From Diplonema papillatum (taxonomy: Eukaryota > Euglenozoa > Diplonemea > Diplonemida > Diplonemidae): a stretch of 64,000 bases of DNA. A program made the translations under genes and the position numbers. The notes under the pieces were generated by a model, which saw only the letters and a program-made list of their open reading frames with translations, had not been told where the DNA came from and did not search any database. How positions within the stretch are numbered: the stretch's first letter is position 1; each line of letters starts with the position of its first letter. Below are positions 1,388 through 64,000 of this stretch, piece by piece. The DNA lies in the NCBI GenBank assembly GCA_030068145.1, contig JAPJBO010000623.1, positions 1-64,000 of the forward strand, given 5' to 3'.

Positions 1388-1665
1388 GAAACCTACCACT
1401 TGGGTGGTCCTAAAATGCTCGGGAAATGCAAAATACGTGGTCGGATGCTCGTTTAGGCTGAAATAATGGCTGCAGAATGCAAAAACAAGACAGAGTCACC
1501 TCCCACAAGGCAATTCCTTAAGGAAAACATCAGAAAACCCAGGGGGGGCGTCACCAGAAATCCAAAACTCGAAACCTACCACTCAGGTGCTCATAAAATG
1601 CTCCGGAACAGCGAAAAACGTGGTCAGACGCTCGTTTAGGCTGAAATAATGGCTGCAGAACGCGA
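1388..1665. repeat. ~80-90 bp module in direct copies (1388-1482, 1570-1665; third at 1879-1952)
   Basis: Three diverged copies share the order gaaacctaccact, a tggtcctaaaa-like block, then gctcgtttaggctgaaataa. Copies one and two continue into aatggctgcagaa. Interleaved with the 195-bp duplication, they give a mosaic typical of repeated insertion or unequal exchange. Confidence 0.7.
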
Positions 1666-1681
1666 AAACAAGTCCAAAACA

Positions 1682-1877
1682 CCCCCACAAGCCAATTCCT
1701 AGGCAATTCCTTAAGGAAAATCATCAAAAACCCAAACTGCAGCCACAAAAAGCAGCCCGACTAGGACACAACCGCAAACGGAACCCAAAAACAATCGGAA
1801 CCCCCAGGAAAGTTTGATCCACACCGGTGTGGGTTCATAAAATGCCTGCAAAATGTGTCGCCAAACCGCCGGGACCC
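1682..1877. repeat. 195-bp duplication, copy 2
   Basis: Near-identical direct copy of 1118-1312. It lacks the 11-base tandem array that follows copy 1 and instead joins directly to the third ~80-bp module. Confidence 0.85.
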
Positions 1878-1974
1878 GGAAACCTACCACTTGGGTGGTC
1901 CTAAAACGCTCGGGAAATTCAAAATAACTGGTCGGATGCTCTTCTAGGCTGTACTTCGTGTTGAAAGCGCTTTG

Positions 1975-10969: not shown

Positions 10970-12258
10970 GGTTTGATGTGGTGTTTTCGCTAGGGTTCTT
11001 CCCCCCCTTGTTTATGTTTCCTGGAAAGCATTGCACTCAATAGAATACCGTACAGCATAGTATGCAAGCGAAGCCAACAATGAGCAAATCAACTTTTTCG
11101 AGAAAGCTCGAGCTGTGAACCGACCCGCAGCAGCGACCTGCAGTACAGATGGTGCTTCCGTAAACCGCTGTTCACATGTTTACATTCCAGTGAGGTTTTA
11201 AGCTAAGGTCAAGGTGTGAAATCACAAACGCAAGTTATTCAAGCTGGAACTGGTCATAGTCGAAGACCGGAAGGTGGTGTCAGACACTCCTGTTGCCAGT
11301 CAAGATCATCGGTATTTTCTACCGTTCGAAGAAGGCGAATAGCAGGCAAATTAAAAGGCAAGTACGTACAAATCACTGATGTGCGTGCATACTATGACAA
11401 CAGATGAAGATGGTTTTGAGGTCCCGCTGATATGAGCGATCATGAAACATGAGACACACACTGTTCTGGGACCTTCGATTGGCACCAATCCTGGTTTGCA
11501 CACCGCCGGAAAGGGGCCGAAGAAGTGTCAAGGGACGAGGCAACATACGTTCAAAAGCAAAAGAAAAGGTGTCTAAATGAAGATCGGCTCTGACTCTCCG
11601 GTGCTGCGGTGTGCCCATTACGAACGAAGACATACGATGTGTTGCTTTGTGTACGTTTACAGTACATGTAAGGTGGTATTCGACAAAGTGGACTTATTAC
11701 CCTTTTAAAATTACAACCCCTTTGCAAGCCTAGGAGCACCGTGTTGCTCAGGCAGCGTTTGTGCTGGAATGATGCTGAGTTCGGGATACGTGCCGAAATC
11801 AGAAATCTCTACGAGAGCTAGTTCCGACTACTATTTCCATTGCAGGTTCAGCCCGGGCACACAGCTTCAATACCTTCTCATCTGTTCGCCGATTTTCGGC
11901 GATTCCGATTTATTCACATAGTCCCGTCTTCTTGTTGCGTTCGTGGGGAGTCATTTGCAAGCAAATGAGTATTACACAATCACACTAATGCATTTTCTTG
12001 TTGTGTTAGTGGGGAGTCATTTGCATGTAAATGAGTACCACGCAAAGTCCCTCGCTCTTTGCATCGGGTGGTTTACGTAGGTGTCGGAATAAGATCGTTC
12101 GCTCAAGTCTTCTTCTTGCTTTGCAAAGACCTTCCTCGCGTCCGGGAAAATGGCCACGTCCACCAGGGGAAGATTTTCTCAGCACAAGATGCTCAGGGAG
12201 GAGTCTTCACCCTATTCACATTGCGGGAACCAGTGTGCACAGGGGCCTTCATGGAAGT
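10970..12258. other. Intergenic, no gene seen
   Basis: Upstream of the myotubularin gene and downstream of PIP kinase 1, both minus strand. It should contain the first gene's promoter and the second's 3' UTR, but no recognisable element stands out apart from the duplication at 11929-12038. Confidence 0.5.
11929..12038. repeat. Tandem pair, 66-bp period, with palindromic core
   Basis: Two copies start with ttcttgttg and share gtggggagtcatttgca, each ending in aaatgagta. The first copy contains the palindrome catttgcaagcaaatg. Function unknown; it sits just downstream of PIP kinase 1. Confidence 0.75.
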
Positions 12259-14139
12259 TCACCGCTTGAGCCCACCCCCGCCCCGGCCAGCTTTCTTCCC
12301 ACCAACCCGTGTTGCGGGCTTTTTGACCGGTGCTCGACTGGCAACGCTAGCTGCAGAGGGGACAGGCACACTAGAGGCGCTCACGCTCTTGCTCAAGGGT
12401 TTTGCAGGTTTTGCGGGCGGGTGGCTGGAGGATGGAGGCTTCTGCGGCTGGCCTCTTTTTGTGGGACGCTGCTTGTCACTGCTGTGAGTATGAGCGGCAC
12501 TTCGGTCGGGGGGAGACGCCGAAATGACATGGGCAGGTTTGAATAATGAAAGCGGTTGCTGAGATGCATGGCCTGTGAGAGCTTGGAGTGGCGCTTTAGA
12601 CGTTGGCATGGGAGAAGTTGGTAAATGGTTGGCAGGGGATGCCTCAGGTTGAACCTTTGGTGTTGGTGACAGATGAGGGGAGGAAAGGCCGGTGGGTGGC
12701 AATGCAGGTGATGGCATCCCAGGTTGTTCCTTTGGTGTTGATGTGGGATGAACGGATGGTGTCCTGGAGTCACTTTCGATGGCATCCAACACACTGTCTT
12801 TGCAGAAGCGAACGAACCGGTCACAGTACTCGCGAGGGGGAATTGTGCTGATCGCATTGCTATCGCAGAGTATCGACTTGGCTGCATTCGCCAGCTTTTT
12901 CTTCGTGTTGTAGTCTTGTAAGTAGTCGATGATTCCTAGCACGAATGTGCTCCCTTGTCCAGCAACGACTAAGCCGCCAATCGAACTTGCGCCCAGTTGC
13001 TTGTCTAACAGTGAAGCCCGCCTTCTACAGTTCCTACTGCTGCTACTATGTGATGCGACTGACCCGTTTAGGACAGAAACAGATAGACGCCTGCTGCTGC
13101 GGTTGAGTGCTTTCGCTGCAATTGAGGACGCTCCTGCGCGCCTCGTCTTGCCCTGGGTTCCGGGGCCCTCGCACTCCCCGACAAGCAAAGAGTAGTCCAT
13201 AATACCCATGTCGTGCAAGAAGCTGGCATCACGCTCGATGATCCCGCCAATTTTTATCTTCAGCTTTTCCGCAACGGTAACCTTTTTTTGCTGCGCCATC
13301 CAGTCGCCGTCTTTAAAGACAATTGTGCGACTGTCGGTGGGCCCTGCTGTTTTAACGAAGCGGCCTTGTATGCTGCCTTTCAGATCGAACAGCCGGGTCA
13401 GCACAAGCTTTTTTGATGCAGAACTTGAACAGGAGAGACGTCTGCTGCTCTTGCCGTTGATGCTTTTCGCGTCGTCAACAGGTGATGGGTTCCCACTGGG
13501 GTCCGAAGTGACATGTGGTTCTTCGCTGAGCTTTGACGGCAGTGCAACTTCACACGCTCCGACGACATTTTCTACGGCAACGAAATGATGCATGGCGCCT
13601 CGTGCTTGGAGGGTAAAAAGTCCGAGTGGTTTGTTGATCAAGCTGCCAGGGTTTGCGGCGAAGTGCTCGACCAGTGAGGATAGCACTTCATTTAATGCAC
13701 GCACTTCACCTTCAGTCAGAGTCTTCAAGAGGAACAGTCGATCGTGGGATTCGGAAAAAATGGCTCCTGACTTGCCGGCAGAAGCGGAGCTGCAGTTGAA
13801 TGGTTTCGACCAGCTCTGTCTCCACTGCTCGTTGCTGATGTGAGCGTGTGTGTGACGGATCCACTTGAAGAAGGCCGGTTGGTAAGTGCGGACGGATGCG
13901 CCGTCGCCGAAGTCGTAAAGCAATGATATGCGTGCCTCGTCGTCTCCAAACTCGTGCCTACTCTTTTCGCTGTTGTCGCACAGCGAAGTAGCCACCGCCG
14001 ATTGTGCGACGTATGCCCGCAGATCGTCGGGATGCGGGCGGTTGAACCACCAAAAGCTCCTCGGGAATTTCGTCCGCTGGCTCATGCTGCGCCTGATCGG
14101 GTTGCCTCTTTCATTTTTGCCTTTCTCTTCATCTCTCAT
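12259..14139 (-). CDS. Phosphatidylinositol phosphate kinase 1 (626 aa, one exon)
   Basis: Transfers phosphate from ATP to the inositol ring of PI4P or PI5P to give PI(4,5)P2; acts at membranes. Motifs from the chosen start: AFFKWIR (about 90), nucleotide loop GKSG (122-125), catalytic Lys in LFLLKTL (139), NPGSLINKPLGLF, LFDLKGS (252-256), KDGDW, IERDASFLHDMGIMDYSLL (MDYSLL at 314-319), GIIDYLQDY (402-406) and a C-terminal IPPREYCDRFVRFC block. The core is interrupted by Ser-rich inserts before DLKGS (about 45 residues) and between MDYSLL and GIIDY (about 80). The last 130 residues are Pro/Ser/Ala-rich and end in a basic Gly/Lys tail. The frame is open to an ATG at 14241, but residues 1-34 look like untranslated or intronic sequence, so I prefer the ATG at 14139. 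Sub-type (4- or 5-kinase) cannot be set from sequence alone. Confidence 0.92.
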   Translation of the reverse strand: MRDEEKGKNERGNPIRRSMSQRTKFPRSFWWFNRPHPDDLRAYVAQSAVATSLCDNSEKSRHEFGDDEARISLLYDFGDGASVRTYQPAFFKWIRHTHAHISNEQWRQSWSKPFNCSSASAGKSGAIFSESHDRLFLLKTLTEGEVRALNEVLSSLVEHFAANPGSLINKPLGLFTLQARGAMHHFVAVENVVGACEVALPSKLSEEPHVTSDPSGNPSPVDDAKSINGKSSRRLSCSSSASKKLVLTRLFDLKGSIQGRFVKTAGPTDSRTIVFKDGDWMAQQKKVTVAEKLKIKIGGIIERDASFLHDMGIMDYSLLVGECEGPGTQGKTRRAGASSIAAKALNRSSRRLSVSVLNGSVASHSSSSRNCRRRASLLDKQLGASSIGGLVVAGQGSTFVLGIIDYLQDYNTKKKLANAAKSILCDSNAISTIPPREYCDRFVRFCKDSVLDAIESDSRTPSVHPTSTPKEQPGMPSPALPPTGLSSPHLSPTPKVQPEASPANHLPTSPMPTSKAPLQALTGHASQQPLSLFKPAHVISASPPDRSAAHTHSSDKQRPTKRGQPQKPPSSSHPPAKPAKPLSKSVSASSVPVPSAASVASRAPVKKPATRVGGKKAGRGGGGLKR

Positions 14140-15149
14140 GATCCCGTCCTTCCACCCAAGGGTTAATAAGAATGTGTGAGAAAAGCATTCAATACAGACT
14201 ATTCGACAAAAAGTTGTTAAAAAGTTGGGTGTGCTCAACATTAGTGTGTTTCGGTTCTGTATTTCAGCTCATCAGTGCAGAACCTGAGTGACTGCAGGGT
14301 GACAGCAGTGTGTGTGTGTTTGGCATCCCTATGTCCTACTGGTGTGACACAGTCAACGGAACAGACATTGACACTAAGCGGAAAATGAAAACCTCTTGTT
14401 TGTGCAGTGGCACGAATTAGGTGGATGACCGCGATAGTGCTGTGGCTCCGGGTGAACATGGAACAAGTAAGCGCGCAACTGGAAGCGCACCGGGTGCTTT
14501 TTTTTTTTTTTTTCCTTTTTCTTTTTTTTTACAGCGAACATTAATCACGGAATGCAAAGGAAGGCTCATGGTTTTTCAGGAAAGCGGGTAACGGAAACCA
14601 TGACCATGAAATTCTACAGTGTGTATAACATGCAGGGTCAAAACCTTGTGTCTTTTTGAAAATGGCAAAAAAAAAATTTCCGGAAAAAAATTGGGTTTTT
14701 TGAATTTTAAAAGTTTGGAACAAACTCTGCAGTAATTTTTGAGGAAGTTGAGCAAAAAAAAAATTTTCCCAAAAAAAATTTAGGGCTCCATCGGCCCCGC
14801 GGGAGCGTTTTAAAAAGACACAAGGTTTTGACCCTGCATGATAACTGGTCGGGACGACCTTGGAGCTGATGCATGAAACGACTGCAAACCCTGAGGTCTC
14901 AGCACATGACAAATGTAAGCGTTCAGTATCGAAGAGCTTTCCCGACGTGCACACGTTACTGTGGTGTTGGTGGTACGTAACAGCGATCGCTCTGGACAAC
15001 CTCACAGGCCAAGGAACGTAGCCGAGGTCCGTTTGGTAGAACAGCGCATTAAACGTGACAGCACTTTGCGGGGATGTCAGCTAATTTCGTGCACGAGTTG
15101 AAGGCAAGCAAAAATGATTCAATGTCAAGACGGGACGGGCTTGAAAACT
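14140..15149. other. Intergenic between the two PIP kinase genes
   Basis: Contains a T-rich tract (about 14500-14530) and the MITE at 14629-14840. No gene seen. Confidence 0.6.
14629..14840. mobile_element. 212-bp MITE with ~34-bp terminal inverted repeats
   Basis: The left end catgcagggtcaaaacct and its continuation tgtgtctttttgaaaa is mirrored by the right end, which reads gttttaaaaagacacaag then gttttgaccctgcatg. The element is flanked by ataa on both sides (14625-14628 and 14841-14844), a plausible 4-bp target duplication. The interior is A/T-rich, with blocks such as aaatttccgg, and has no coding capacity. It therefore looks like a non-autonomous DNA transposon. No second copy was noticed in the window. 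Confidence 0.85.
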
Positions 15150-18100
15150 TCAACACACCTGGAAGCTCGAAGGGGCGCCGACAATGTTGCTTACTCGCGG
15201 TTTGTGCCTAAAAATGCTGGTGCAGAAAGACTGGAAACGATTTCCGTACTCGTCGGCGGGGATCTGTTCATAAATTTGTCTTCTCGTGAGTGTCCGGGCC
15301 TTTGAAGTGCATGAAGTCTCACGTTACTTCTCCTACGTGTTTTACCCTGGGTCAAAACATTGGCCAAGAGGCATTGGGCATGGCACAGCAGCAGTGAACG
15401 CAAGATAAGCATGCACATGCTGTCGGAAGCTAAGTTATGTCAATATCACCCCATGTACTCGTTTTTTTAACCAGAAAGGTGCAAATAGCACATACGCGAC
15501 ATACTCCAGTCCGTGAGTAATCAAGCAATATGTATTTTGTGAAGCTATTTCGTGAAGGAATTAATATTTTTTTCTGACAGGCGCTAGGGGGTTTTAAGTT
15601 GTTTTTTGCTGGAGTCTGGTGGTGGGCCCCCGGTCCGGCAGGTCACAGTGCGGTTGCGCGGGGCCACGCAGCAATCGCATGTGCGAGTACATGTGCAGCC
15701 CGGGAACACACAGGACAGCAGCGCGCCACGCGTCTTCGTGGGAGTCAGCAGCGGCTTCGGGCCCCGCTGCCTGGGAAAAAGTACTCGTTGTGCTCGCGCT
15801 TGTAGTTCACGCACCTGGACACCACAGCCACATCCACGGTTTTGTTGGGGTGCTCCGCATTCCACGAACGCACTATGTTGTGGTGGTGATGGCAAGATAG
15901 CATACCGTTGAAAGCTGTTGCTCAAAGAAAGCAAACTGTTTGAAGAAATTTGCTAACTTCTTCAGGGAGTGATAGTTGGTCAACGTGTCGATGATGCCCA
16001 TAAAGAAGATCTCGTGGCAATCGTGGGACAAGACCCCGTTGTGATAGCTGTGTTTTTTTTTGTTTTCCGCGACCCATTTCTAGGATTTTCGCCGACATGT
16101 GAACTCGCTTCTCTTTTTTGATTGTCCCAGAAGCTTTCTCTACACCCCTGGAAACTTCCCATTTCGGGAAATCTTAAGGCTCAAGGGCCAAAACACGACC
16201 CGCTACACTCTACGTTAGAGAGCTGCTTTCCCGAAGGTGTATTTCAGGCAGAGCCACGACAGCAGCCGTCGCGGTGCGGTTAATAACCTGCCTACTCTTG
16301 CTCATTTTCGGAATTAGTTTTGCCGACGACCCTTTTTTTCAGAGTTAAGGTTCGCTTGATTTTTCCTATGCTAAAGATCTCAGGGAATGATCTCTACGAA
16401 AACGTGTAAAAGTCTTCTGTCAATACATGGACACCAACGGTTTTGTAAACTCGAAGGTCAATGTTTCACCTTTGTGCATGGGTACGTGCAGCCACCGCTC
16501 AGCAGTGCACAAACTTGGGATGCCAAAAGCTACTTCGATGCGCTACAAGCAGCCGGATTCTTGGTCGAGAGGTACCTCTATGCAACAAATCCCGTGGGTC
16601 AATGGTGGAGCTGATAAGGTTCAACATTACTCGGCCCAAACAAAGCAAGGAAGGACTGTAAATTCGGCATCTGTTCAACTGAGCCAGTCCACCCCAGTCA
16701 TGGAATGCTTTTTTTTCGGTTGCTTTGTGTTGGTTTCATTTTCGTGTGCTGAGGCCGGCCCAATTATTAGAAAATAACTCAACGTATCTGCTTTGACTCC
16801 GAATGTAAAATCTGATTGATCATCGCCTACACCACTGCGGCCCCCCTGCTCCACTTCTTCCTCTTTTTTGTTCTTCGCTCAGCCACCGTGTGCTATTTTC
16901 ACTCAGGACTTTGACCTGTTGTGCTTGTGTTTCTTGTCGTGTAGGGGTAGACCCGCATGACCTCACGTGAGTACAACATCAGTACTTGGTGTCGAGCCTT
17001 GCTTTCCGAGCTGGCGCTTATGTAAAAACCCCGGATAGGAACGTCATCCTGGAAGTTCGCTGTTCCAGGCTGACGCCACCTGACGGTGGGCTTCGTTGGA
17101 CTTTGAGTACTGTCTTGGGCATACTACTGACTCTTCGGTCGAAGCGGTGTATGTGTCCCTGTGATGGAACGGATGGTCGCTGGTGACAGGCCAGCAGCAG
17201 GGTCGTATGCTTGAGCCACTTGCTTACGCTTCTCCAAAGTCAGCTCGGGCTTCACAATGATAAGCAGCAGCGAATAGTCCATCAGGTTGTGTTTTTTCAG
17301 GTATTCTGTGTCTTTCTCCAACTGCTGCACAATCATCTTGTGCGCTGCAGGTGGGACTCGAAAATCCCGCATGAGGTCCTTGTCCTTCAGTGTACCACTG
17401 GCCTTCTTGTTGACATGCGGGAGCTTGCCAGGTTTTGGAACTCTGCCCTTCAGGTCATAGATCTCCATCGACAACTTCATGTTGGCAGGGACGTCGGTGA
17501 TATTTTCGAAAACGAGTATGTACTTCGTCATTTTGACCTGTAATGTTTTTTTTGGTGTTACTGGGGGGCGGGTCGAATACACGAGGTATCTTGAATACAA
17601 GAGGAGCCTCAAATAGAAGCAGCATTTTGGAAATCTGGAAAAAGGTTGGTTTTTTTCTTGGTCCGCATAGCAGACCTTTTTTGACGGTTTTTCGCGATGA
17701 GCTCCGATGAAGAGAACCGTGAGAAATAGACCCGGAGACCAAAAACTATGTGTGTGGTTCATGATGCGGGGCGCCGGGCATGGAAACCACAGGTTTTTAG
17801 AGTTAAAGTTCTTAAGTTTTTTATTGGGAAAGACGAGAATCGACCCACTGGTTGGTGGCTTTCTCCGCGAATTGTGCTCGCGTTCAGCTCGAAGAGAACC
17901 GTGAAAAATAGACCCGGACCGCAAATTACGTGCGTCTTCCAAGAAGAAGGGGGTTCCCGCGGGTTCCAACGTTTTTCTATTTCTTGTTCGGGAAAACTGC
18001 AGGATCAGCACGGCGAATACAAGAGGTACCTACCCCCCCCCGTGTTTAAGATCGCGTTTTTCCGTGTTTAAGATCGCCCCCCAAAAAAACCGATCTTATA

Positions 18101-43606: not shown

Positions 43607-45200
43607 CTAACATTGCGGGCGATTTAGTCTTGTGTACTGATCCGCGATGTTCTGGAGCGACGGGACGTAGCTGATATTCAGCCGGCTCCTGGATGAGGCC
43701 AAGCTCTTGTTCATCAGAGTTAGCAGCTGCATCGCATCCTGACGAAGCGTGTAGCCGCGGCGTACGCAGCCTATCACCGCCTTGTTGTCACACAGCAGGT
43801 TGATGTCCACGCTCGACTGGCCGTGGACCGCGTGCTGTACGGCCCGAACGACGGCGTATAGCTCCTTCATGAAGATGTCCGCGTGGAGTAACTCCGCAGG
43901 AAAACCGCCGTAGACATGGGACCCGTCTGCCACGAAGGCCCATGCCGACATGCTGGCGTCGGAGACGACATCGATCGAACGAGTGTAAACCGGTTTACAC
44001 CATTGCCGCCAGGCGTTACCCCGCATGTCGGAGCACTGGGCAACGAGGCAGCTCTTGACCGCAGCTGGGCAAGGCGCGACGGAGTCCCAGAACGCGCTGT
44101 CGGTGGACGAACGGCCGGAAGCCAGGGTTGACATCCACTGCAAGAGGAGAAGTACCTCGTGGAGAGGGTACCCCATCACGTGGCGACGCCAGAGCAGAGA
44201 CCCAGTCAGTTTCCACCACACGCGGACGGGAGCCTCACTACACTCCCGGATGCGATCCATCACCGGTCCAGCCTTCCCTATCCAGGATGGGTCCACACGC
44301 CATCTCTTCGCTGCGAGGTCGACTTCCAATCCCAGCAGCACCGCCCGGGTAGAAGGCTTGGACCAGCTCCCGATGGTCAAGCCGTACTTCGAAGTCAAAG
44401 CCTTGAAGCGAGCTGAGGCCTCTATAACTTCGGCCTCAGTGTCCGCCACAAATATCACGTTATCGATCCACGCGAGAACCTCAACGTCCACACCCTGAGC
44501 GGCGGCAGCCGCAAGCTCCAGCGAGACCGCCTGGGCCGCCTGAGGCGCAGCGCGGTAGCCCATCGGCAGGCGCGTCATCCACAACAGCCTGCCCTCAATA
44601 CGGAAACAGAAATACTTTCTGACCTCTGGAGGCAGCGCAAACTGGAAAAAAAAGGAGCGGAAGTCGAACTCAGCCACCCACTTGCGGGACAGCACCGTAC
44701 TCACGATGGTGGCGTAGCTGGGTAGGTCGCAGGGCGGCAAAGGCACGTGTGCCGTGGCCCGGTTGATTGACTCGCAGCTGAGGATGAACCGGAGCTGACC
44801 GGGGGCCCGTTTATCCACCGTAAACGCGCCGTGAAACCAGCGGGAAGAAGCCGCCTTGGGGACCGGCGCAGCGATCTTCAACGCGAGCAAGCGCTCAACG
44901 TGCGGCCTCATTCGTGAGTTGCGCGGACCAGGGCCGGATACGAACGAACCCGGTCTTAACATGCTTCCGATGAACTCGGAATCCAGTAACCATCGCATGT
45001 TGGTCCGGAGAGCGGGAAAATCGTGCAAGAGCGCTTCGTGACTGAAGGGCGGAGCCGTCGAAGCTATTTCACCTTCATAGGATGCTTTCGTTACGCGCTT
45101 TCCACTGCTGGCGTCCAACCAACCGTTGGCGTAGTCGTAACCCTGGAGGATCTTGTCCAGGTGGCGCGGCCACAATGGAGGCTTAGCGGGGCGGTGGTTC
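43607..45200 (-). CDS. Reverse transcriptase-RNase H of the YR retroelement
   Basis: Copies the element RNA to DNA and removes the RNA strand. RT motifs: FTVDKRAPGQLRFI and the catalytic EFDFRSFFFQF (motif A), LPMGYRAAPQAA, then WIDNVIFVAD at motif C, where YxDD is expected, so the second Asp is Asn. LTIGSWSKPSTRAVLLGLEVD follows. RNase H: VVSDASMSAWAF, FMKELYAVVRAV, NLLCDNKAVIG and QNIADQYTRL keep the D-E-D pattern. The frame stays open far upstream to 46159, but there it only shadows the recombinase gene; protein-like sequence begins near 45195, four codons from the recombinase stop. The first ATG after that is at 44998, so translation probably uses frameshifting or re-initiation. Confidence 0.85.
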
Positions 45201-46119
45201 AGTCGGTTTTCTGCAGCGCAGCTGTACCCGGGACTGTCCGCTGGACCGGCTGCCAAAGGTGATGCGGCGTGTACAGCCGCGTCGTCCTGGGGTTGAGGTG
45301 ACGACCTACGCACATCGCTGCTTGCTCTCCTTCCACAAAAGCCACCCAAGTCAGCGCGGCATGTCTGATCCTGTGTGAAGGAACCCCCAGCTCCTCTTGA
45401 AGGAAACTGTTGTAAGCCTGTCTTGACAGGTTGGGGAACACGAACGCCTTGGGGCCGCTGGCAGGGCGTTGGATGGTGATCCATTCCCAAAAAGGCGTCA
45501 GAAAAGCCCCGCTTCGTGGCAGTAAGAGACCCTGTCCTCGGGACGTCGGGTCGGTCTTCCCGCCGACAAACAGGATCATGACCTGTTGCTTGTCCACCGA
45601 CCACATGTGGTCCAACCGGACCCGTTGCAGGTCCACGAACCGGCACGCCGTCGACCACTGGAACCGGAGGGCCATGGTATGCAAGCCGGGGCCTCGTGAG
45701 ACCACCTGTAGGACCTCCTCTTTGGATGGGGTCCGCCCGGCATCGCGGGTACGTCGGTCCTCGAACTGATCCATGGTCAGCCTGACCGAGCGCCGGTATG
45801 CGCTCATCCAGTTCACCCGAGACATCCGGAAGTAGGTCACGTACTGGAGAGCCGACTCGGCCTTGATCTCGCCAGCCGTCACCTTCCGATTCACCCACAT
45901 CAGGAAGGCTTCCTCGTCGGATAACGTGGGGCGAAAGCGTCGGGCCTCCTCCGCGTATCTCTGAGCGCGGCTCACCACTGACAGCATGGCAGGGGTGCTC
46001 TTGTAGCACTTCTGCACGGCGAGGAGGAGTGCCTCCTGATCCCTTCGGAACCGATCTTGATCGGGACACCCGAAGTCTTGTTTCCGAGGTAGTGACCTCT
46101 TTACCACCTCTGCCCACAA
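45199..46119 (-). CDS. Tyrosine recombinase of the retroelement (306 aa)
   Basis: Inserts the DNA circle by strand exchange. Signature residues: Arg in STACRFVDLQRVRLDHMW, Lys in FVGGKTDP, HRIRHAALTW (H-x-x-R box), then VGRHLNPRTTRLYT with the late His and nucleophile Tyr. Length fits the phage-integrase-like domain. The N-terminal helical region (about 1-130) would be the core-binding domain. It lies between gag and RT, overlaps the RT frame, and its ATG is 40 bases into the spacer after gag. Confidence 0.88.
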   Translation of the reverse strand: MWAEVVKRSLPRKQDFGCPDQDRFRRDQEALLLAVQKCYKSTPAMLSVVSRAQRYAEEARRFRPTLSDEEAFLMWVNRKVTAGEIKAESALQYVTYFRMSRVNWMSAYRRSVRLTMDQFEDRRTRDAGRTPSKEEVLQVVSRGPGLHTMALRFQWSTACRFVDLQRVRLDHMWSVDKQQVMILFVGGKTDPTSRGQGLLLPRSGAFLTPFWEWITIQRPASGPKAFVFPNLSRQAYNSFLQEELGVPSHRIRHAALTWVAFVEGEQAAMCVGRHLNPRTTRLYTPHHLWQPVQRTVPGTAALQKTD

Positions 46120-46155
46120 ACCCGCGGTAGGCAGGCCTGCGGGACTCGCCGACCC

Positions 46156-47082
46156 TCACCTTCGAGGCCTCTTCAGGGAGGGCTCCTTCTTCTCCTCCTT
46201 GTTGTCTGCCTTTTTTGCCAGCTCGGCCATGGCCTTCTGGGCTTGGATCAAGGCCGCCTTCGTGAAGTCGGCATAGTCCATGGACCCGAAGCGAGTCTCC
46301 CAGGAAACCTGGAACTCAGTGCCGTTCGAGTGGAGGCATTTAAGGCGAAGGGCTTCGAGGCGGACCATGATCTGGTGCAAAACCTGGAGGACAGGCGGGG
46401 AGCTGTGTGCCAGGGGCATCAGAGCCGTGAGCGTGGAGAAATGCATCCTCCGCTCATGATCCAGGGAGCTTCCCGCATCGTGGGGGTGCTCTGGCACCAG
46501 GTGGTACGTGTACCGTGCCTTAACCTCCGACAGAATCATCTGTCGCCCCTGTCCGCTCGCCAATCCTTCCAGCCAAGTAGTGACTCGACGAGGATCCACC
46601 GCTTCGGTAGTGACCGGTGCGGCTGGCACTGGAGCGAGCTGAGCCCGCATGGCAGACTGTGCAAACAATGCAAGAAAGGCAGTCTTGACTGGCCCCTCTT
46701 CGAGAGCAGCGAGCAGGGAGCATGGGTCCAAGCTCGGGGGGACGGCCGGATCGTGATCACGGGTCCCCCTCGCGTTCTGTTCTTCTTTTAGGCTGCTGCC
46801 GGCCAGGTGTAGTGACACCAGGCACTGGGGACAGACCCAGCCGTCCTCGGACAAGTGTTCGAGGAACAGGGGCGCGACCTCCTTCGGCAGGGATGCCTTC
46901 AGGCATGACGGGAACCCCCGTTTGCCGCACCGGGCGCAGAAGGCACCCGAGTTGTGGGTCTTTCCACAGTCGACGCAGCAGTCCACGTCCTCGTCGGCGG
47001 CCTCCCAACCGTCGGGGGCAAGGACGACCTCGATGGGAGACCAGTCGACAGCCTTCAGGTCAATCGCCATCTGCACGAGCAA
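46156..47082 (-). CDS. Gag-like zinc-finger protein of the retroelement (308 aa)
   Basis: First ORF of the element on minus. Near residues 33-100 it has a Cys cluster (CCVDCG, FCARCGKRG, SCLK, WVCPQCLVSLH) with C-x2-C pairs like a treble-clef/RING zinc finger, typical of YR-retroelement gag but unlike CCHC gag knuckles. The C-terminus is Lys/Arg-rich (KKADNKEEKKEPSLKRPRR) and may bind nucleic acid or act as a nuclear signal. Starts 6 bases inside the right 111-bp repeat. Confidence 0.75.
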   Translation of the reverse strand: MLVQMAIDLKAVDWSPIEVVLAPDGWEAADEDVDCCVDCGKTHNSGAFCARCGKRGFPSCLKASLPKEVAPLFLEHLSEDGWVCPQCLVSLHLAGSSLKEEQNARGTRDHDPAVPPSLDPCSLLAALEEGPVKTAFLALFAQSAMRAQLAPVPAAPVTTEAVDPRRVTTWLEGLASGQGRQMILSEVKARYTYHLVPEHPHDAGSSLDHERRMHFSTLTALMPLAHSSPPVLQVLHQIMVRLEALRLKCLHSNGTEFQVSWETRFGSMDYADFTKAALIQAQKAMAELAKKADNKEEKKEPSLKRPRR

Positions 47083-48147: not shown

Positions 48148-48520
48148 GTTTGGTATCTCGTGACTGTCGCTTCCCGAAACTGACTTGAACCGAAAAGCGA
48201 GTACGGGCGCGGCAAGTCCTTGGTTGCAGGTGGCGGCAGTATGGTGTCGGCATCCGGCGACACGTTCTCGAGGGAGGACTATGCTGTTTTGCAACGAAGT
48301 TCTTGCTGTCCCAGAGAACGTCCTCAGCGACTTCTCCGGAAGAGGGCCATGAGCTCTGCAAGGTCTGCATTGCAGTTGGACAATGCGGTCCGGCATTGCT
48401 GCCGTGCATTGCAGTAGCGGGTTTCGTTCAATGAGAGGAAAGGAATGAAGAAATCCGAACCGACCCCCTGTATGTAGATTCGTCAAGCCTCGCAGGTTCC
48501 CTCGGAAAATCAGTGAGAGG

Positions 48521-49386
48521 GCCGTGCGCCCTGTCCCAGAGACTGTCCATGTGGCTTCTCCGGAAGAGGGCCTTGCGCCCTTCCCAGAGGTTGTCTCCGT
48601 GACTCCTCCGGAAGAGGGCCGTGCGCCCTTCCCAGAGGCTGTCTCCGTGACTCCTGCGTGCCCAGAGACTGTCCATGTGGCTTCTCCGGAAGAGGGCCTT
48701 GCGCCCTTCCCAGAGGTTGTCTCCGTGACTCCTCCGGAAGAGGGCCGTGCGCCCTGTCCCAGAGACTGCCCATGTGGCTTCTCCGGAAGAGGGCCGTGCG
48801 CCCTTCCCAGAGACTGTCCATGTGGCTTCTCCGGAAGAGGGCCTTGCGCCCTTCCCAGAGGTTGTCTCCGTGACTCCTCCGGAAGAGGGCCGTGCGCCCT
48901 TCCCAGAGACTGTCCATGTGGCTTCTCCGGAAGAGGGCCGTGCGCCCTGTCCCAGAGACTGCCCATGTGGCTTCTCCGGAAGAGGGCCGTGCGCCCTTCC
49001 CAGAGGCTGTCTCCGTGACTCCTCCGGAAGAGGGCCGTGCGCCCTTCCCAGAGACTGTCCATGTGGCTTCTCCGGAAGAGGGCCGTGCGCCCTGTCCCAG
49101 AGACTGCCCATGTGGCTTCTCCGGAAGAGGGCCTTGCGCCCTTCCCAGAGGCTGTCTCCGTGACTCCTCCGGAAGAGGGCCGTGCGCCCTTCCCAGAGAC
49201 TGTCCATGTGGCTTCTCCGGAAGAGGGCCTTGCGCCCTTCCCAGAGGTTGTCTCCGTGACTCCTCCGGAAGAGGGCCGTGCGCCCTGTCCCAGAGACTGT
49301 CCATGTGGCTTCTCCGGAAGAGGGCCTTGCGCCCTTCCCAGAGGTTGTCTCCGTGACTCCTCCGGAAGAGGGCCGTGCGCCCTGTC
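48521..49386. repeat. 48/49-bp minisatellite, ~18 units
   Basis: Units are built of ctccggaagagggcc(g/t)tgc, gccct(t/gt)cccagag and one of two alternating tails (actgtccatgtggctt or gttgtctccgtgactc). Most are 48 bases, keeping frame; variants with tgtcccagag are 49 and shift it. In frame on plus it reads VHVASPEEGRAPFPE / VSVTPPEEG, on minus RRSHGDSLWEGRTALF. Long ORFs on all frames come from the repeat alone. Two decayed units sit at about 49738-49850. Confidence 0.9.
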
Positions 49387-53300: not shown

Positions 53301-53426
53301 CCGGGGTTTTAAAGTCTCCGGGTGACCTTCGTCGTTAAGGGAAGATGTTCTTTGTCGGGCAGCATCGTCGAGCATTTCCTTTCAAGCTGGCGCTTATGTA
53401 AAAAAAAAAAAAAAAAAAAAAAAACG

Positions 53427-55361
53427 GAGAAAACCATAAGGGAAGCACTTAAGTCGGGAAAATATTTATCGGAAACTGTTTCCGATAAATATTTTTTTTG
53501 TTTCCGATAAATATTTTTTTTGTTTCCGATAAATATTTTTTTTGTTTCCGATAAATATTTTTTTGTTTCCGATAAATATTTTTTTGTTTCCGATAAATAT
53601 TTTTCTGTTTCCGATAAATATTTTTTTGTTTCCGATAAATATTTTTTTGTTTCCGATAAATATTTTTTTGTTTCCGATAAATATTTTTTGTTTCCGATAA
53701 ATATTTTTCTGTTTCCGATAAATATTTTTTTGTTTCCGATAAATATTTTTCTGTTTCCGATAAGTATTGATCACTTTGACAGTAGGTTCACCTACTTCGT
53801 CCCGTGGACGAAGCCAAATACGATCGTTTTTCTATCTAGTTTCGGGTCGAAAGCCTCCCCAGCAAAGGCTGTTCAATTTTCAACACCAGATACGCAAACC
53901 TTTTCGAATGCAGCACACGGGTATCCAACAAGTGACATCTAACTATCTGGTTGCATTGAGCAGTATCCGGATCTGAAAGCTGAAGACTTTGTACCACTTC
54001 ACCGCGACAAAGGTCACGAACGCAGTTGCAGTAAAACTGCGTCTTGCGCACGAGCGCGGAAATCCGCCACCCACCATTCGGCTAGATATTGCAAGAACAC
54101 AACTGCAAAGCTTACTACAAACGGATAGTGTTACAAAGGCGAACGAATCATGCGAGAACCTACGTAGGGGCCCCTCAACAGCTTTCAGAACGGCAAGTCA
54201 AGAAAAGGATAAGTTTGCACATTCTACTTCCGTCTGATCTGCATGTTCCCCAGTTCTACCCTTCGTTGATCTGTTGTGTGTATTCGCAACGACTTCATCC
54301 GGGTCCTACGCGGCCCCAATACGACAAAACTGCATGCGGTCCTGACCAGGTAACATCCTCCTACCTGAAAATGTCTAACCACGACTACGGATTTGGTGCC
54401 ATCGAGGCAGCCATGGAGTGTAAGTATGCCAACGGGGCTTAGTAGTATCGGGGCTGCCGTGCATACTAGTTCCCGTAAAATATTTGTTTCCCTTGACTTG
54501 TGCCATGTCGGACGGTAGGATTTTCCGCGTCAGCCTCATTTCAATCCTGGAGACAAAAGCACTCACACAATAAAGACTAGCCCATTTCACGGGCCAAAAC
54601 TGCCTTTGTTGCAGAAATCAGCAACACAGGCAAGCGATGACAGAACAGCGCACACGAAGACGACCGGCTCTGAAGAGACCCGCGCCGCAAACTGCGCGAG
54701 CAGAGGGTGCCAAGCAAACCAGGAAGGAAGGCGAGGAGATTCAGATGGCACAGCAGGACGCCCGCGAGGGATCACCGAGGTCGAAAGACAGAAAAGGGAA
54801 AGCAGGCGTGGCCGGCTTGAAAAGCTGCAAGCGCGGAGAAGGCACAGGTACAGAGCAGTCCACATGCAGACGAGCAGTGAAGCGGCCCACATCACAGAGG
54901 TCTATCACACTGGCTCCGGATTACTTAGGGTCCTCGCAAAATCCAATGAAATTGCTTGCCCAATGGGACTCCCCTTGGGCACATTTCGCACTGGGGACTA
55001 GTCCCCAGGAACCCGTATCAAAAATATTTATCGGAAACAAAAAATATTTATCGGAAACAAAAAATATTTATCGGAAACAAAAAAATATTTATCGGAAACA
55101 AAAAAATATTTATCGGAAACAAAAAAATATTTATCGGAAACAAAAAAATATTTATCGGAAACAAAAAAATATTTATCGGAAACAAAAAAATATTTATCGG
55201 AAACAAAAAATATTTATCGGAAACAAAAAAAATATTTATCGGAAACAAAAAAAAATATTTATCGGAAACAAAAAATATTTATCGGAAACAAAAAAATATT
55301 TATCGGAAACGTTCCGATAAATATTTTCCCCACTTAAGTGCTTCCGATATGGTTTTGTCTC
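53427..55361. mobile_element. 1.9-kb foldback element with satellite arms (FB-like)
   Basis: Outer inverted repeats of about 50 bases (left gagaaaaccataagggaag..., right the complement) enclose two inverted arrays of 20-22-base units, gtttccgataaatatttttt type: 14 units on the left (53479-53780) and 14 in reverse orientation on the right (55020-55310). At each end the last unit is flipped, making a hairpin. Core 53781-55019 is 1.24 kb and encodes no protein I recognise. The element lies between A runs (53400-53424 and 55362-55370), so target duplication cannot be read. The layout recalls the FB transposons of Drosophila; homology is not implied. Confidence 0.88.
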
Positions 55362-55539
55362 AAAAAAAAATGGGAGGAGGATTGGTAGCTCGCAATTTTC
55401 GACAAAGACGCTCGTTGGACACAATAGAAACGATCGAAAGGTGGTTTGACTGTTTGACACAGCCAGTGTTCTGGAGCTGCGTAGAGCAGCCGTACACAGT
55501 GTACTCCAGCACCGGGTAGGGGAGTTACCTGTGCCGGGT

Positions 55540-58910: not shown

Positions 58911-61900
58911 CTACTGTTGAAGAAGGGAGCTGCCCATATGTGACTGCGACAACAAGGAACAGGAAGCGTTCAGCTGCGATGGGGAGAACAAGGAACTTTC
59001 CGAGAAGATGTTGTCTTCATCATCCAGGACTTCATCATCAAACACATGCGCTTTGCCTGCCGATAGGTGCTTCAACTCGTCGCTCCCCTTCTTCACGCGC
59101 ACGACTCCTGCTGCCATCGTCACGATAGCGAGCCCCATGAATAGGAAAACTACAGCATGCGGGATCTTTGCATCTCCGATGACTAGCCCGTTGTAGCACT
59201 CATCAGCGAACACTCCTGCTGCTGCAATGACGGCACCTGTATCCGAACCTGCATTGCTGACATTCAAATACGAGGTTCTGCCACCGAATCGCTCATGTGT
59301 CAGAAGCTCGATGTACCCTTGCTGCTCTTCGCTGTAGCCACACACCTTCAGACTCTTGTTCCCGTCGGTGCCGGTGACTGTTTCGATCAGCAGCTCTTGC
59401 CCGGAATTTTCCAAGCGAGGGCTCTTCACGAGCACGCCTCTGGCACAGTTCCCTTTAAGCACAGCTTCCCCTTCCGCTGCACAGAAATCATCTTGCTGGC
59501 AGTTCTCATCCATGTCAATCACTTTCACAGCGTTTGTCGACACATTCCCGCCCCATGAGCCCGCAAAGCATCCATGCACGATGATAGTAAAGTACTTTCC
59601 TAACAAGGGCGTGTTGGGGTACGCTGTGTACCAAACAGCACCCTTCGGCAAGCAAACTTGCGTGTTACAGCTTACTCCAGTCCACCCACTGTCGCAAACG
59701 CACATTCTCGACTGACCAGTACAGAAGCCGTGGCCACTGCACGTTGTCTCCCGAGAACACACTTCACAAGCCCCAGCAGGAGAGATGGAAAACCCACAAG
59801 TCTCGCACTGGCTCCCAGTCCAACCAGTCTTGCAGACACAACAGCTAGACTCGCAGTTCCCGTGGGCGGTGTTGACTTCGCAGGTTCCCTTCACGAATTG
59901 GCAGCGGTCTCCTTCCCCCCTTTCGCAGGCATCTTCTGTGGTCCTGTCCTTGCACATCGGAGGGACAACGGCGCATCCACTGTCTTGGTTCCACGTGCAG
60001 CGAGACTCGCTGTTGCACGTTGCTTCGTCAGTGTAACCGCAAGGGTGGTCACTGCAGACCCCGTTGTCCCACTGGCAAAGGGATCTTTCTACGCAGGTTG
60101 CTTCGTCTGTCAATTCGGCGCACGGAAGAACAACACCACACGTTCCTTCGTTCCACGAGCAGCGCGGCTTGCTTTTGCACGTTGCTTCGTCAGTGTAACC
60201 GCAAGGGTGGGTACTGCAGACACCGTTGTCCCATTGGCAAAGGGACTGTTCCACGCAGGTTGCTTCGTCTGTCAGTTCGGCGCACTCCGCACCGAGATCT
60301 TGGCAGGCCTGAGAAGCAACGTTCCACTCGCATGCCAAGTCGCTCTCACATTGTTCTGGAGTTACCATCGCACTGCATGCCACGGGTACGGTTGGTGCCT
60401 CTTCGCACGTTTCGTCTGCTGTGCTCCATTCACACGTTGACGTCGTCTCTGCGCATTCTTGAGGGGTGCAGTGTTTCACGCAAGCACTCTGAGCGCAGCT
60501 GCGGCTGGTGGCCAACCACACACATTGCAAGTCGGTTTCACACGTCGGTTCCGTGTCGTAGAATGCGCAAGGCCTGCGGGCATCCGGCATGGCACCGAGT
60601 AGCACTTTGCCGAAAGGCTGGGTTGGATCGCAGATGGATCCTAGCGCATCTGGTAGTTGCTCCAAAAACATTGTTTGCAAAGAAAGAGAAGCCGGAGAGG
60701 AGACAATAGGCAGCCACGTGTTCTTCACAGCTTCATCCGAGCCCGCCACTGTCGACGCTCTGCGGAGCACCACACACAGGCGGGTGGCCGAAACCGCATT
60801 CAAGCCTTGCAAGTAACTCGACGAAGTCTCAGAATCCTCCAAGGACCCGTACCCAACCACAATGAGCACGTTCTTCCCACCGGAGGCTTCCTGCAACGCG
60901 CCTGCGCTCGCCGTCAAAGCCTTCTGCACGAGTGCTTGCCCGCCCAAGAAATTGTCAGCATGCCACTCCAGCTCGTCAGACAACTTCTTCTTCTTCGACG
61001 AAAGCTTGCCCCCAGCACCAACCCCAAAAGGTGCCAAACCGAGATTGCTCTTCACAACGCCGTTCTCTTTCGTCCCGGAAAACTGCAAGAGCGAGACCTG
61101 CATTGGGTGGCCCCCTGCTTGGCCTTGGCCGCTCTGGCCCAAAGGCAAGTCGTGAATCCAGTCCTTCAACATCGAAAGCACGGCATAATACCCGTGAGGC
61201 CGCCTGCCAAATGCCTGGCTCAGTTCCGAAGACCCACTGAAAGCGACTGCGATGTTCAAGGATGGGCACAACGCGTACTTTGCGCCCGTGCATTGCCCGC
61301 TTTCGGAAGACCCAGACTCGCCAGCAAAACACTCGGAGTGAGACTTGCACTCGCAAGGGTCCTGTGCTTCGCATGTTGCAGGAGAGCATGCCGTCGTTGT
61401 TTCGTTCCACGAGCAGAAAAAGTTCGAGCTTTCGCAGAGTCCTCGAGTTGTCATGCTCAGGCATGGATCTTGCACACACAGCCCTGGCGACACGTCGACC
61501 GACCAGTGGCAGCCTTCGTAGGTTTCACACGCGATTTCTGTCGGAAGCTGGGCACATGTTTTCAACTGGCAAGCGGCTCCCTCCCCGCTTTCGCCAGACA
61601 CCCATTCACACGCCAAGTCCGCTTCGCATTCGGCTGGCTCCGCGCTCTTGGTGCACTTTGCCACCTGGCAGCCAGCAGCTACAATCGCAATGTCAACCTT
61701 CCCGCTCTCACACTGCGGTTCGTTGTTCTCCCACTCGCACAAGTACCCTTTTCCTGCTGTGCTTTCCACCTCCATCGACAGCCACAACCCCTCTGGTGTC
61801 GTCATGTAAGCTGCTGCATTGCTGCTAAAACTAGGTTCACCGGGCATCCAGTTCGTGAACGTAACCTCATCCTGATCTCCACCGGCCCAGGACCAGAAGT

Positions 61901-64000
61901 CTGACATCCCGCGAGCCCCCGTCCAAGCGCCGCCTTGTGCAAACTTCAGAATTTCCTCAGCTTCTTGTCCGTCGACAATTGTAGCCAGATACCCGGCCCT
62001 GCCGGCCAACGTCGCATTATTGCACGCAGCCGACGCGTCCAGCCACGAGCATCCTTCCAACCCACAAGATTGGTATCGGTAGAATCGGTCGGTTACTGCC
62101 GAGAACAGCCCGGGGCCCAAGTTCCACGAAATTGTTCTAGGCAACAACTTGTCGGAACTGGTGGTGAACGTGATGTGCGACGACGCATCCGCATAAGCAG
62201 ATGCTGACAGAGGTGTAGCAGTCGCCGACGAGAGGAACAGAGCTCCGGCGTGTGCCTGCCACTCTGTGCTGATGCCGAGGACGGCACAGTCAGGGCAACT
62301 CAGCGAGTCCTTCCCTTCAGAATACCCTTCCGAGATGCGCGCCGCCGCACCGTGGACGGGAGACTCACAAGTCACGTCTTCACCGCATCCCGACATCTGA
62401 CAAGTCAGACCTGCCAACGGACGTGCGGGTTGGCCTGTCGTGTACGTGAGGGTGACAGGCGGACTGGCAGTGGTTGTTGTAGCCGTTTCGTTTACCACGT
62501 AAGCGATCCAGTTGCAGTCAGCCTGCGCTTCGCACGTCGTCGTGTCTGAAAACGTGCACGCTGGTGGGGCGCACTGACCTCGGTCGCTGTCCCACATGCA
62601 CGTTTCATCTGTGCTCGCCAGGCAGCCTGTCTCCGTTTCATGGTCGCACCTTTTGTATTCGCAACTCATCGTTTGTTCCCACCACTCACACGCACCGTCC
62701 GCTGCACAGTCCGTTGCATTTCCTGATCGTTCTTCACATGTCTTGGCAGGAAGAACGCGAACGCACGTTGTATCCCAGCGACAGCCCCCCTCGAAATCGT
62801 CTTTGCACAAGCCTTCTGTGCAGTGAACCGAGCAATGAGAGTTGATGCACGCCGCATGTGCATCATCCCAGTCGCAATCAGCGTTTCCGATGCACCCCCT
62901 CTTCGACGAAAGCCGCGAGCACACGACGAACTCGCTGCTTTCGTTTGCAACGAACGCACCAAACACCGTTTCCGGGTCGCAAAGCCCAGACAGGATGTCG
63001 GCGCGAAGACCTTGCAGCGAAACAGCAGCGAAATGGCCTGTCCTCGGCTCCGAAGCCAGCCAGCGCAAGGATTCGCTCGCTTCGTCAGAGAAGGCAGGCG
63101 AAAAACTCGGGTTCGTCACGAAAACTGAGAAGATCGAAACGCCGTGTGTTTCCAACGACGCCTTTTCCGCTCCCACCTGCGATGAGTCCGCCACAACCGT
63201 ACCTCCGATGACCAGCAACACCTTCTTCCTCTCAGACCCACTAGACTGCTCGAAGATCGACGACGCGACAGAGAGCCCTTCCGCAGCACCTGTCGCTCCG
63301 TTCGAATCGTAAAAGTTATCCAAATGCCACGTTAGCTCATCGTCCACCTCATCCGCCAACCCTGACAAGCTGCCAACAGGTGACTTCGCCTGGGAACTCG
63401 TCGAGAACTGCACAACCGAAAGTCGAACGCGTCCCGACTTGTCGCCGATACCAGCACCCACCGCAGCAGCGTCTTCTGAAAGCGGCAGGCCTGGGACCCA
63501 GTCTCTCAATGTTTCCAGCAGTCCAACAAACCCGTGCGGGTGTCGGCCGAACGACTGCGACATGGCATGCGATCCGTCGATCATTATCACGACGTCAAGT
63601 CCTGGACAAGTGCCATACGGCACCCCCACGCAGAAGCCTCCTTGCGCTTGGTACGCGCAGCCTTCCTTCGTGAGGCAGTCGCAGTGATCCAACGACGGGC
63701 ACGCTAGCTTTTCGCACCGTGACTCCGCAGAATTGTACCAACACTGGGCCTTCTCGTTGCACTCATTCGCAGAGCTGTCGTACTCCGCACACGCATCTCT
63801 CGCACACATTGCCGGGCTCCTCGACACGTCCCATTCGCACCGCTCTGATGCACCCACGCAGCACAGTTCATCTTCGCTGTATTGAGCGCACGGCTTCAGC
63901 GAACAGCTTTGTGCCCCAGAATTCCACTGGCAGTAGTGGTCGGATGCGCACAAGACTTCTGTCTGCATGCCTGCTCCGCAGCGCTTCAAAGCGCAGCCGT
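58911..64000 (-). CDS. Large cysteine-rich vWA / C-type lectin / EGF type-I membrane protein (5' truncated)
   Basis: Open to the right edge; at least 1692 residues are here. In order: Cys-rich PSI-like repeats; vWA domain 1 (about 130-340; IMIDGSHAMS); more C-x-W-type Cys repeats; C-type lectin domain (about 640-760; GYLATI, FSWAGG-like WSWAGGD, NWMPGEPSF, YLCEWE); vWA domain 2 (about 905-1130; VAFSGSSELS); a 54-residue tandem repeat (TDEATC..LCQWDNGVC..PCGYTDEATC, twice); EGF-like modules (about 1370-1446, CSGHGFC, CVCDSGWTG); a beta-rich stalk; one TM (AVVFLFMGLAIVTMAAGVV, about 1613-1632) and a ~60-residue acidic/Ser-rich tail. The metal-ion (DxSxS) sites are incomplete. An adhesion or recognition role at the surface fits; architecture recalls apicomplexan TRAP/MIC adhesins but no TRAP tail was seen. 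Confidence 0.9.
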   Translation of the reverse strand, partial: GCALKRCGAGMQTEVLCASDHYCQWNSGAQSCSLKPCAQYSEDELCCVGASERCEWDVSRSPAMCARDACAEYDSSANECNEKAQCWYNSAESRCEKLACPSLDHCDCLTKEGCAYQAQGGFCVGVPYGTCPGLDVVIMIDGSHAMSQSFGRHPHGFVGLLETLRDWVPGLPLSEDAAAVGAGIGDKSGRVRLSVVQFSTSSQAKSPVGSLSGLADEVDDELTWHLDNFYDSNGATGAAEGLSVASSIFEQSSGSERKKVLLVIGGTVVADSSQVGAEKASLETHGVSIFSVFVTNPSFSPAFSDEASESLRWLASEPRTGHFAAVSLQGLRADILSGLCDPETVFGAFVANESSEFVVCSRLSSKRGCIGNADCDWDDAHAACINSHCSVHCTEGLCKDDFEGGCRWDTTCVRVLPAKTCEERSGNATDCAADGACEWWEQTMSCEYKRCDHETETGCLASTDETCMWDSDRGQCAPPACTFSDTTTCEAQADCNWIAYVVNETATTTTASPPVTLTYTTGQPARPLAGLTCQMSGCGEDVTCESPVHGAAARISEGYSEGKDSLSCPDCAVLGISTEWQAHAGALFLSSATATPLSASAYADASSHITFTTSSDKLLPRTISWNLGPGLFSAVTDRFYRYQSCGLEGCSWLDASAACNNATLAGRAGYLATIVDGQEAEEILKFAQGGAWTGARGMSDFWSWAGGDQDEVTFTNWMPGEPSFSSNAAAYMTTPEGLWLSMEVESTAGKGYLCEWENNEPQCESGKVDIAIVAAGCQVAKCTKSAEPAECEADLACEWVSGESGEGAACQLKTCAQLPTEIACETYEGCHWSVDVSPGLCVQDPCLSMTTRGLCESSNFFCSWNETTTACSPATCEAQDPCECKSHSECFAGESGSSESGQCTGAKYALCPSLNIAVAFSGSSELSQAFGRRPHGYYAVLSMLKDWIHDLPLGQSGQGQAGGHPMQVSLLQFSGTKENGVVKSNLGLAPFGVGAGGKLSSKKKKLSDELEWHADNFLGGQALVQKALTASAGALQEASGGKNVLIVVGYGSLEDSETSSSYLQGLNAVSATRLCVVLRRASTVAGSDEAVKNTWLPIVSSPASLSLQTMFLEQLPDALGSICDPTQPFGKVLLGAMPDARRPCAFYDTEPTCETDLQCVWLATSRSCAQSACVKHCTPQECAETTSTCEWSTADETCEEAPTVPVACSAMVTPEQCESDLACEWNVASQACQDLGAECAELTDEATCVEQSLCQWDNGVCSTHPCGYTDEATCKSKPRCSWNEGTCGVVLPCAELTDEATCVERSLCQWDNGVCSDHPCGYTDEATCNSESRCTWNQDSGCAVVPPMCKDRTTEDACERGEGDRCQFVKGTCEVNTAHGNCESSCCVCKTGWTGSQCETCGFSISPAGACEVCSRETTCSGHGFCTGQSRMCVCDSGWTGVSCNTQVCLPKGAVWYTAYPNTPLLGKYFTIIVHGCFAGSWGGNVSTNAVKVIDMDENCQQDDFCAAEGEAVLKGNCARGVLVKSPRLENSGQELLIETVTGTDGNKSLKVCGYSEEQQGYIELLTHERFGGRTSYLNVSNAGSDTGAVIAAAGVFADECYNGLVIGDAKIPHAVVFLFMGLAIVTMAAGVVRVKKGSDELKHLSAGKAHVFDDEVLDDEDNIFSESSLFSPSQLNASCSLLSQSHMGSSLLQQ

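Follow-up and report, generated by a model that had tools for sequence, protein, structure and literature searches.

A foldback-type Mutator-like transposon family with arms of tandem arrays in Diplonema papillatum

The element and its neighbours in the window

The window, the whole stretch of 64,000 nucleotides of D. papillatum DNA analysed here, carries a Myotubularin-FYVE gene with two PIP5K-like frames close by (6710-18011), a reverse transcriptase frame (PF00078, E = 9.5e-9) beside two further frames without Pfam matches (43607-47082), a 48-bp/145-bp tandem array with about 15 copies of the 48-bp unit (48516-49386), and a cysteine-rich frame of 1,692 aa with VWA and EGF-like domains (58911-63989). 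By eye, the second of these looks like a candidate DIRS-type retrotransposon with a putative tyrosine recombinase. The subject of this report is an element of 1,937 bp that spans exactly 53425-55361, with AAAAAAAAA at either flank.

An earlier note, made from the letters of the sequence, had described two facing arrays of 14 units with flipped end units, enclosing a core and lying inside outer inverted repeats. That description was accurate, and the left boundary lies 2 bp further out than it had been placed (Table 1). Tandem Repeats Finder (TRF), run on the window, reported 21-bp arrays at 53477-53768 (13.8 copies, score 522) and 55020-55310 (13.9 copies, score 527). Counted unit by unit, each arm has 14 forward units, the degenerate innermost left unit included, plus one flipped unit at its outer end. 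The outer inverted repeat comprises 34 bp per side, with six differences between the two sides, and is followed inward by the flipped unit. A 30-bp end probe, allowing up to three mismatches, found only the two ends of the element in the window, and 0 in 100 shuffles. Its long inverted ends, built from short units in tandem and variable in number, place the element in the foldback structural class.

Table 1. Parts of the foldback-type element, in coordinates of the window
Feature	Position	Strand	Remarks
Target duplication, left copy (A9)	53416..53424		Inside an A25 run and uninformative alone; the 9-bp size rests on other copies
L-type outer end, 34 bp, CGGAGAAAACC...AAGTCGGG	53425..53458	+	0 mismatches to the family L type, 6 to the R type
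Flipped unit adjoining the L end	53459..53477	-	Pairs with the first array unit as a short palindrome; on the L side of 37/38 complete elements
Left array, 14 units of GTTTCCGATAAATATTTTTTT, 20-22 bp, innermost degenerate	53478..53767	+	TRF and unit count
Core, 1,252 bp (1.25 kb), non-autonomous filler	53768..55019		No match to the autonomous interior
Right array, 14 units	55020..55310	-	TRF and unit count
Flipped unit adjoining the R end	55311..55327	+	On the R side of 38/38 complete elements
R-type outer end, 34 bp, from outside inward GAGACAAAACCATATCGGAAGCACTTAAGTGGGG	55328..55361	-	0 mismatches to the R type; TATCGGAA in common with the array unit
Target duplication, right copy (A9)	55362..55370		A9, as on the left

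Copies, target sites and an autonomous partner

We searched the genome that contains the window (271 Mb, 2,910 contigs). The whole element gave at least 138 matching pieces among the best 40 of 1,797 candidates scored, and the end patterns, with up to three mismatches, were found 225 times for the R type and 290 times for the L type; reversed patterns, used as a control, gave 0 and 0. On these results the structure is genuine, present in many copies and more than chance would give. The earlier note had proposed this search and had named the lack of any other copy as its counter-case; what was found is hundreds of ends.

A total of 47 loci were examined, namely 39 from the best places, seven long-span places (described below) and the window, a sample biased toward well-preserved, young copies. 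The two end types differ at 6 of 34 positions, and these six fixed differences are kept in nearly all ends read. Most ends score 0 or 1 mismatch against their own type. The exceptions score 2 (the L ends of L015 and L030 and an outer R end of L028) or 3 (the L end of L024 and the R end of L045). In L015 and L024 the L end seems to carry two of the six R-type bases, so limited exchange between the two ends happens. An assembly artefact, at the level of the family, is ruled out by the presence of the same unit signatures in independent copies. With gaps ignored, 32 family cores (lengths 1,220-1,278) had a mean pairwise difference of 0.27% and a maximum of 0.87%, and 5 of the 32, in this sample biased to the best matches, had no substitution relative to the majority. 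A stretch of 127 codons running up to the end of the core is open in 32/32 cores, a divergence of 0.27% being too low to test for coding.

L and R ends face each other at 40 of the 47 loci; the remaining seven are without one end or its flank. At the 40 loci the 9-bp target duplication was perfect in 35, had one mismatch in three (L028, L036 and the composite copy L012) and was worse in two, L027 and L042, which we class as without duplication. Because homopolymer duplications cannot prove size, the estimate of 9 bp is taken from the non-homopolymer pairs, of which 21/25 matched their own partner compared with 1/600 cross-copy pairs. Empty sites, whose comparison had been suggested beforehand as a way to read the duplication, give the same size. 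The L016 insertion sits in a repeat, and when its flanks were joined, 39 of 44 matching rows spanned the junction; the 9-mer was present once in 4/4 aligned empty sites (three exact, one with one change), at 93-94% identity through the junction. The empty sites are paralogous to the filled one, and the duplication measures 9 bp.

A+T makes up 95% of the 35 perfect duplications, compared with 53% of nearby flanks. Entirely A/T duplications made up 24/35, against 0.53% of the 9-mers of the window (binomial P = 9.5e-47), and homopolymers 14/35, against 0.17% (binomial P = 2.7e-30), the background in both cases being this window only. The targets are A/T tracts, and they include the family's own arrays: 6 of 93 ends, in 5 of 47 loci, have array units abutting them on the outside. 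Such insertion could explain why some copies (L012, L023, L028, L038 and L043) have extra ends, which come from either nested insertion or recombination inside arrays. One could suppose that the arrays are chiefly a landing pad, A/T-rich and attractive to the family's own insertions, with nesting and recombination remodelling the arms. The abutting ends, set against arrays that by estimate form a tiny part of the 271 Mb, and the extra-end copies agree with this. However, 26 of the 38 elements whose arms were counted (below) are of uninterrupted size and unit signatures are conserved across copies, so arm variation does not come mainly from nesting; we regard a chiefly landing-pad role as possible but doubtful.

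An autonomous partner had been predicted, and it exists. Long spans were found by pairing L and R ends by hand among the first 100 listed of each type. Three of the seven long-span places (L049, L050 and L052) each have one long open frame between the family's ends and arrays; these elements measure 5.4-6.1 kb and are 97-99.5% identical to one another across their main alignments. The frames of L050 and L052 match the MULE domain PF10551 at 35.3 and 35.7 bits, a modest match above the cut-off of 27.6, and a DBD_Tnp_Mut match in L050 was below threshold. In the L050 protein we picked out by eye the motifs FLDG, MTDR, CLRH and NAVESLN, a SWIM-like CxC...CKH and a CCHC; the first four are candidates for the catalytic D, D, CxxH and E of a MULE transposase.

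A protein search of the genome gave at least 82 matches, and at least five loci open over all 531 query residues, among the best 81 of 476 candidates scored. The five are the query's own locus, three that are each 100% identical to it (C16, C818 and C1180) and, with a short in-frame gap, L052. The remaining matches listed are relatives, some of them partial and some distant, the latter at 25-32%. Four of the five open-frame loci (L049, L050, L052 and C1180) have both ends together with a perfect 9-bp duplication, that of C1180 being ATGTTTTTT at both flanks; at C818 the stretches examined contained the R end but no L end. Taken with the low divergence of the cores, the identical transposases point to a young family with recent and perhaps ongoing activity, in a sample that favours young copies. 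As a separate observation, at least 17 matches, at 85%, cover query residues 90-241, 16 of them in a frame of 159 aa (e.g. C187:272643-273098); these form a second dispersed derivative, probably of a sister MULE.

The remaining four long-span places have the same ends and other content, with the whole 1.25-kb core in L053 and L054, most of it in L048 and none in L051. The last of these (1-4391) has both ends, a perfect duplication, ATATTAGAT, and one outer unit on the left and none on the right; it carries an open frame of 506 aa, possibly captured. BLAST of the window core against L049, L050 and L052 gave no match. With nothing in common between the core and the autonomous interior, copies with the 1.25-kb core did not arise from autonomous ones by simple deletion. 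IMG/VR and GTDB contigs, each scanned once for short peptide patterns taken from one protein, an approach that reaches close relatives only, gave no virus or prokaryote relatives. A viral contig (L059) has one exact match to a 20-mer unit.

Unit counts and sequence of the arms

We counted contiguous outer units in the arms of 38 elements. Left arms had 1-14 units (mean 7.7) and right arms 0-20 (mean 11.4), the right being longer in 28; counts were equal in five elements and unequal in 33, with no significant correlation (Spearman 0.19, p = 0.26). We then set aside 12 elements longer than 1,950 bp, several of whose counts are lower bounds because the arms are interrupted. In the 26 uninterrupted elements left arms ranged from 6 to 14 units and right arms from 7 to 20, the right was longer in 22, and the two were again uncorrelated (Spearman -0.12, p = 0.56). 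Thus the equal unit count reported earlier is true of the window copy, at 14/14, but is atypical of the family, being seen in 5/38 elements and in 4/26 of uninterrupted size.

Exactly equal arms were nevertheless more frequent than expected, at five against 2.2 among the 38 elements (P = 0.045), four against 1.05 by re-pairing among the 26 (P = 0.004) and, without the window, three of 25 against 0.95 (P = 0.03), in a test with small numbers that was made after the data had been seen. The right arm was shorter than the left in 0/26 uninterrupted elements against 1.77 expected (P = 0.047; without the window, P = 0.18). Small as the numbers are, this surplus favours a degree of equalisation in arm length.

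Unit spacing averages 21.1 bp, and each side has its own pattern. Read from outside, the right signature is 21,20,23,22,20,21... and is common to many non-autonomous copies and to the autonomous L049 and L050, L052 having a shorter right arm without the 23,22 step. The left signature is 22,22,22,21 in many copies with the 1.25-kb core and 23,23,21 in the autonomous ones. The elements with equal arms (L036, 7/7; L037, 9/9; L044, 8/8; and the window, 14/14) keep in each arm the signature of its own side, and the left arm of the window starts with 22,22,22,21 and not with the right-hand 21,20,23,22. We also compared the first 150 bp of the arrays in 34 elements (L041, L048, L051 and L053 being left out of the 38). 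Identity was 0.930 between left arms and 0.959 between right arms, compared with 0.899 between left and right arms of the same copy and 0.897 between those of different copies. The left arm of the window was 0.954 identical to other left arms and 0.917 to its own right arm.

These data bear on the copy-and-mirror mechanism that the equal counts of the window copy had suggested, and on a milder form of it in which the two arms anneal as a hairpin whose stem is then copied or trimmed so that they become equally long. The 14/14 of the window, the surplus of equal arms in both sets, the absence of right arms shorter than left among uninterrupted elements and the R-type bases in two L ends are all on its side. 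Against it, lengths are unequal in most elements (33/38, and 22/26 uninterrupted) and uncorrelated, an arm is no more like its own partner than like the opposite arm of another copy, equal-armed copies retain separate signatures, and the ends keep their six fixed differences. The arm identities, the side signatures and the fixed end differences contradict mirroring of sequence, and mirroring or its milder form is in our judgement very unlikely as the account of the arms. Length equalisation alone, without sequence mirroring, may occur, and the extra units in the left arm of the window may have come from slippage, unequal exchange or local conversion from the right arm.

An 8-bp word, TATCGGAA, is common to the R terminus and the array unit, a likeness equalled in 103 of 5000 letter shuffles; the exact word is absent from the L terminus. 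This touches on the idea that the satellite came first and that pre-existing arrays were captured by a transposon. The clean tandem arrays are in its favour, but the side-ordered arms and the word shared by R end and unit fit growth from the terminus, if indirectly, and capture is hardly probable.

Proposed mechanism and comparison with known systems

With shared ends, 9-bp duplications, empty sites, near-identical copies and a transposase gene between the same ends all seen directly, the element in the window is very probably a non-autonomous copy of a Mutator-like (MULE) family with foldback-type ends, served by the transposase of rare autonomous relatives. In the mechanism we propose, the rare 5.4-6.1-kb relatives would make the MULE transposase, which would recognise the shared ends (the 34-bp terminus, the flipped unit and the 21-bp array), act in trans on the short non-autonomous copies and move them by cut-and-paste, inserting the element into A/T tracts with 9-bp duplications. 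The word TATCGGAA, present in unit and R terminus, may be the transposase recognition motif. The mean unit spacing is about two helical turns of DNA; the arrays could supply extra binding sites, as tandem units are said to do in one Galileo (below), presented by this spacing on one face of the DNA. The arrays would mostly lengthen and shorten independently, by slippage or unequal exchange and not by mirroring.

Several observations sit less easily with this mechanism. The PF10551 match is modest, the exact word TATCGGAA is missing from the L terminus, and the core is unrelated to the interior of the autonomous members. The surplus of exactly equal arms in uninterrupted copies is not something that independent arm growth predicts. 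L051, with its one and zero outer units and perfect duplication, suggests that elements may manage without arrays or that its arrays disappeared afterwards; L053, with two and one outer units, is less clear as a short-arm case, as it has further units inside the element. A broader scheme would cover the surplus, in which the arrays are both a helically phased platform of transposase sites and preferred A/T-rich targets, so that self-insertion and arm pairing rebuild the arms. We consider this dual role rather unlikely; if it were true, the transposon would carry and feed its own landing pad.

The non-autonomous copies of widely ranging arm length, many of them young, lie in one genome with hundreds of ends and with near-identical autonomous copies whose frames are open, so that both the effect of arm length on transposition and the growth of arms can be tested directly. 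The family also clearly exemplifies the insertion of Mutator-like elements into A/T tracts. It leaves the classification of transposons unchanged: it is a new foldback-type MULE, a known kind of mobile element, and its nearest precedent is Tm1.

The first reading of the locus had likened it to FB/Galileo-type foldback transposons. The foldback type stands, and the layout is alike; kinship with Galileo does not, because a partner with a MULE transposase and a 9-bp duplication identify a Mutator-like element and not a relative of Galileo and the P superfamily. Two features of MULEs were found, a MULE-domain transposase in elements with the same ends (L050 and L052) and a duplication within the 9-11 bp of that group, with which the empty sites agree. 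A true Galileo relative, or an element of the FB lineage, in a protist would share the inverted ends with variable numbers of tandem units, as described for Galileo F copies (PMC3573991). It is nonetheless extremely unlikely: the account in that paper gives 7 bp for the Galileo duplication, and Pfam on the L050 and L052 proteins gave MULE and no P-type transposase or THAP domain at E <= 0.01. At the same threshold the L050 and L052 frames had no Pfam match to FLYWCH, the mark of the Phantom subclass and Tm1, or to the PHD finger of Rehavkus.

Earlier work has found MULEs in protists, stramenopiles among them (PMC6446971); the same paper lists one oomycete MULE group with SWIM and CCHC. A foldback MULE of a protist was not among the matches listed in our literature search of titles and abstract openings, which ran outside subscription papers and preprints and is not proof of absence. 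A barley MULE (PMC9168764), judged from what its text offered, was not relevant as a comparison.

Galileo and Tetris of Drosophila, as portrayed in excerpts of PMC3573991 and PMC4079207, also have tandem units within inverted ends. The two ends of Galileo change length independently, and the tandem units of one Galileo are said to contain extra transposase sites; in Tetris a 37-bp stretch is common to terminus and unit. They differ from the present family in their units of about 210-220 bp and their duplications of 7 bp (Galileo) and 8-10 bp (Tetris), and in that Galileo has a P transposase while Tetris, in these accounts, is without a known partner. Rehavkus (PMC6446971) has a 9-bp duplication and a minisatellite ahead of its 3' end, and is described there with a PHD finger and from arthropods and annelids; a minisatellite is present here, but as part of both inverted arms, each of which is an array. 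MuTAnT of Medicago is, in the sections of PMC4486113 that describe it, a foldback-ended MULE with 9-nt duplications where readable, simple-sequence A/T targets and one autonomous partner. Its targets are mainly (TA)n microsatellites, and its ends are inverted repeats of about 144 bp made of a few modules, with no 21-bp arrays.

The closest likeness is to Tm1, the Mutator/Foldback family of root-knot nematodes, as described in PMC3169594, and this common plan is why we class the present family as a foldback-type MULE. Tm1 has two unlike short termini, A1 usually at one end and A2 at the other; tandem short units, variable in number and differing between the ends of one element; 9-bp duplications; a MULE transposase in the autonomous member; and non-autonomous members, MITE-like ones among them. 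The A1 terminus, CGGTTAA or CGGATAA, resembles by eye, possibly by chance, the CGGAGAA of the L end here. The units of Tm1 are most often 14 bp, with 1-9 per terminal inverted repeat, compared with 21 bp and up to 20 per arm in our family, and its transposase is of the Phantom type, with the FLYWCH domain for which we found no match. A/T-tract targets distinguish our family from Tm1 as described there. Lastly, Tm1 is called inactive and senescent (PMC3169594) and Tetris has no transposase reported in the corresponding part of PMC4079207, whereas here the sampled copies are young and autonomous members with open transposase frames are present.
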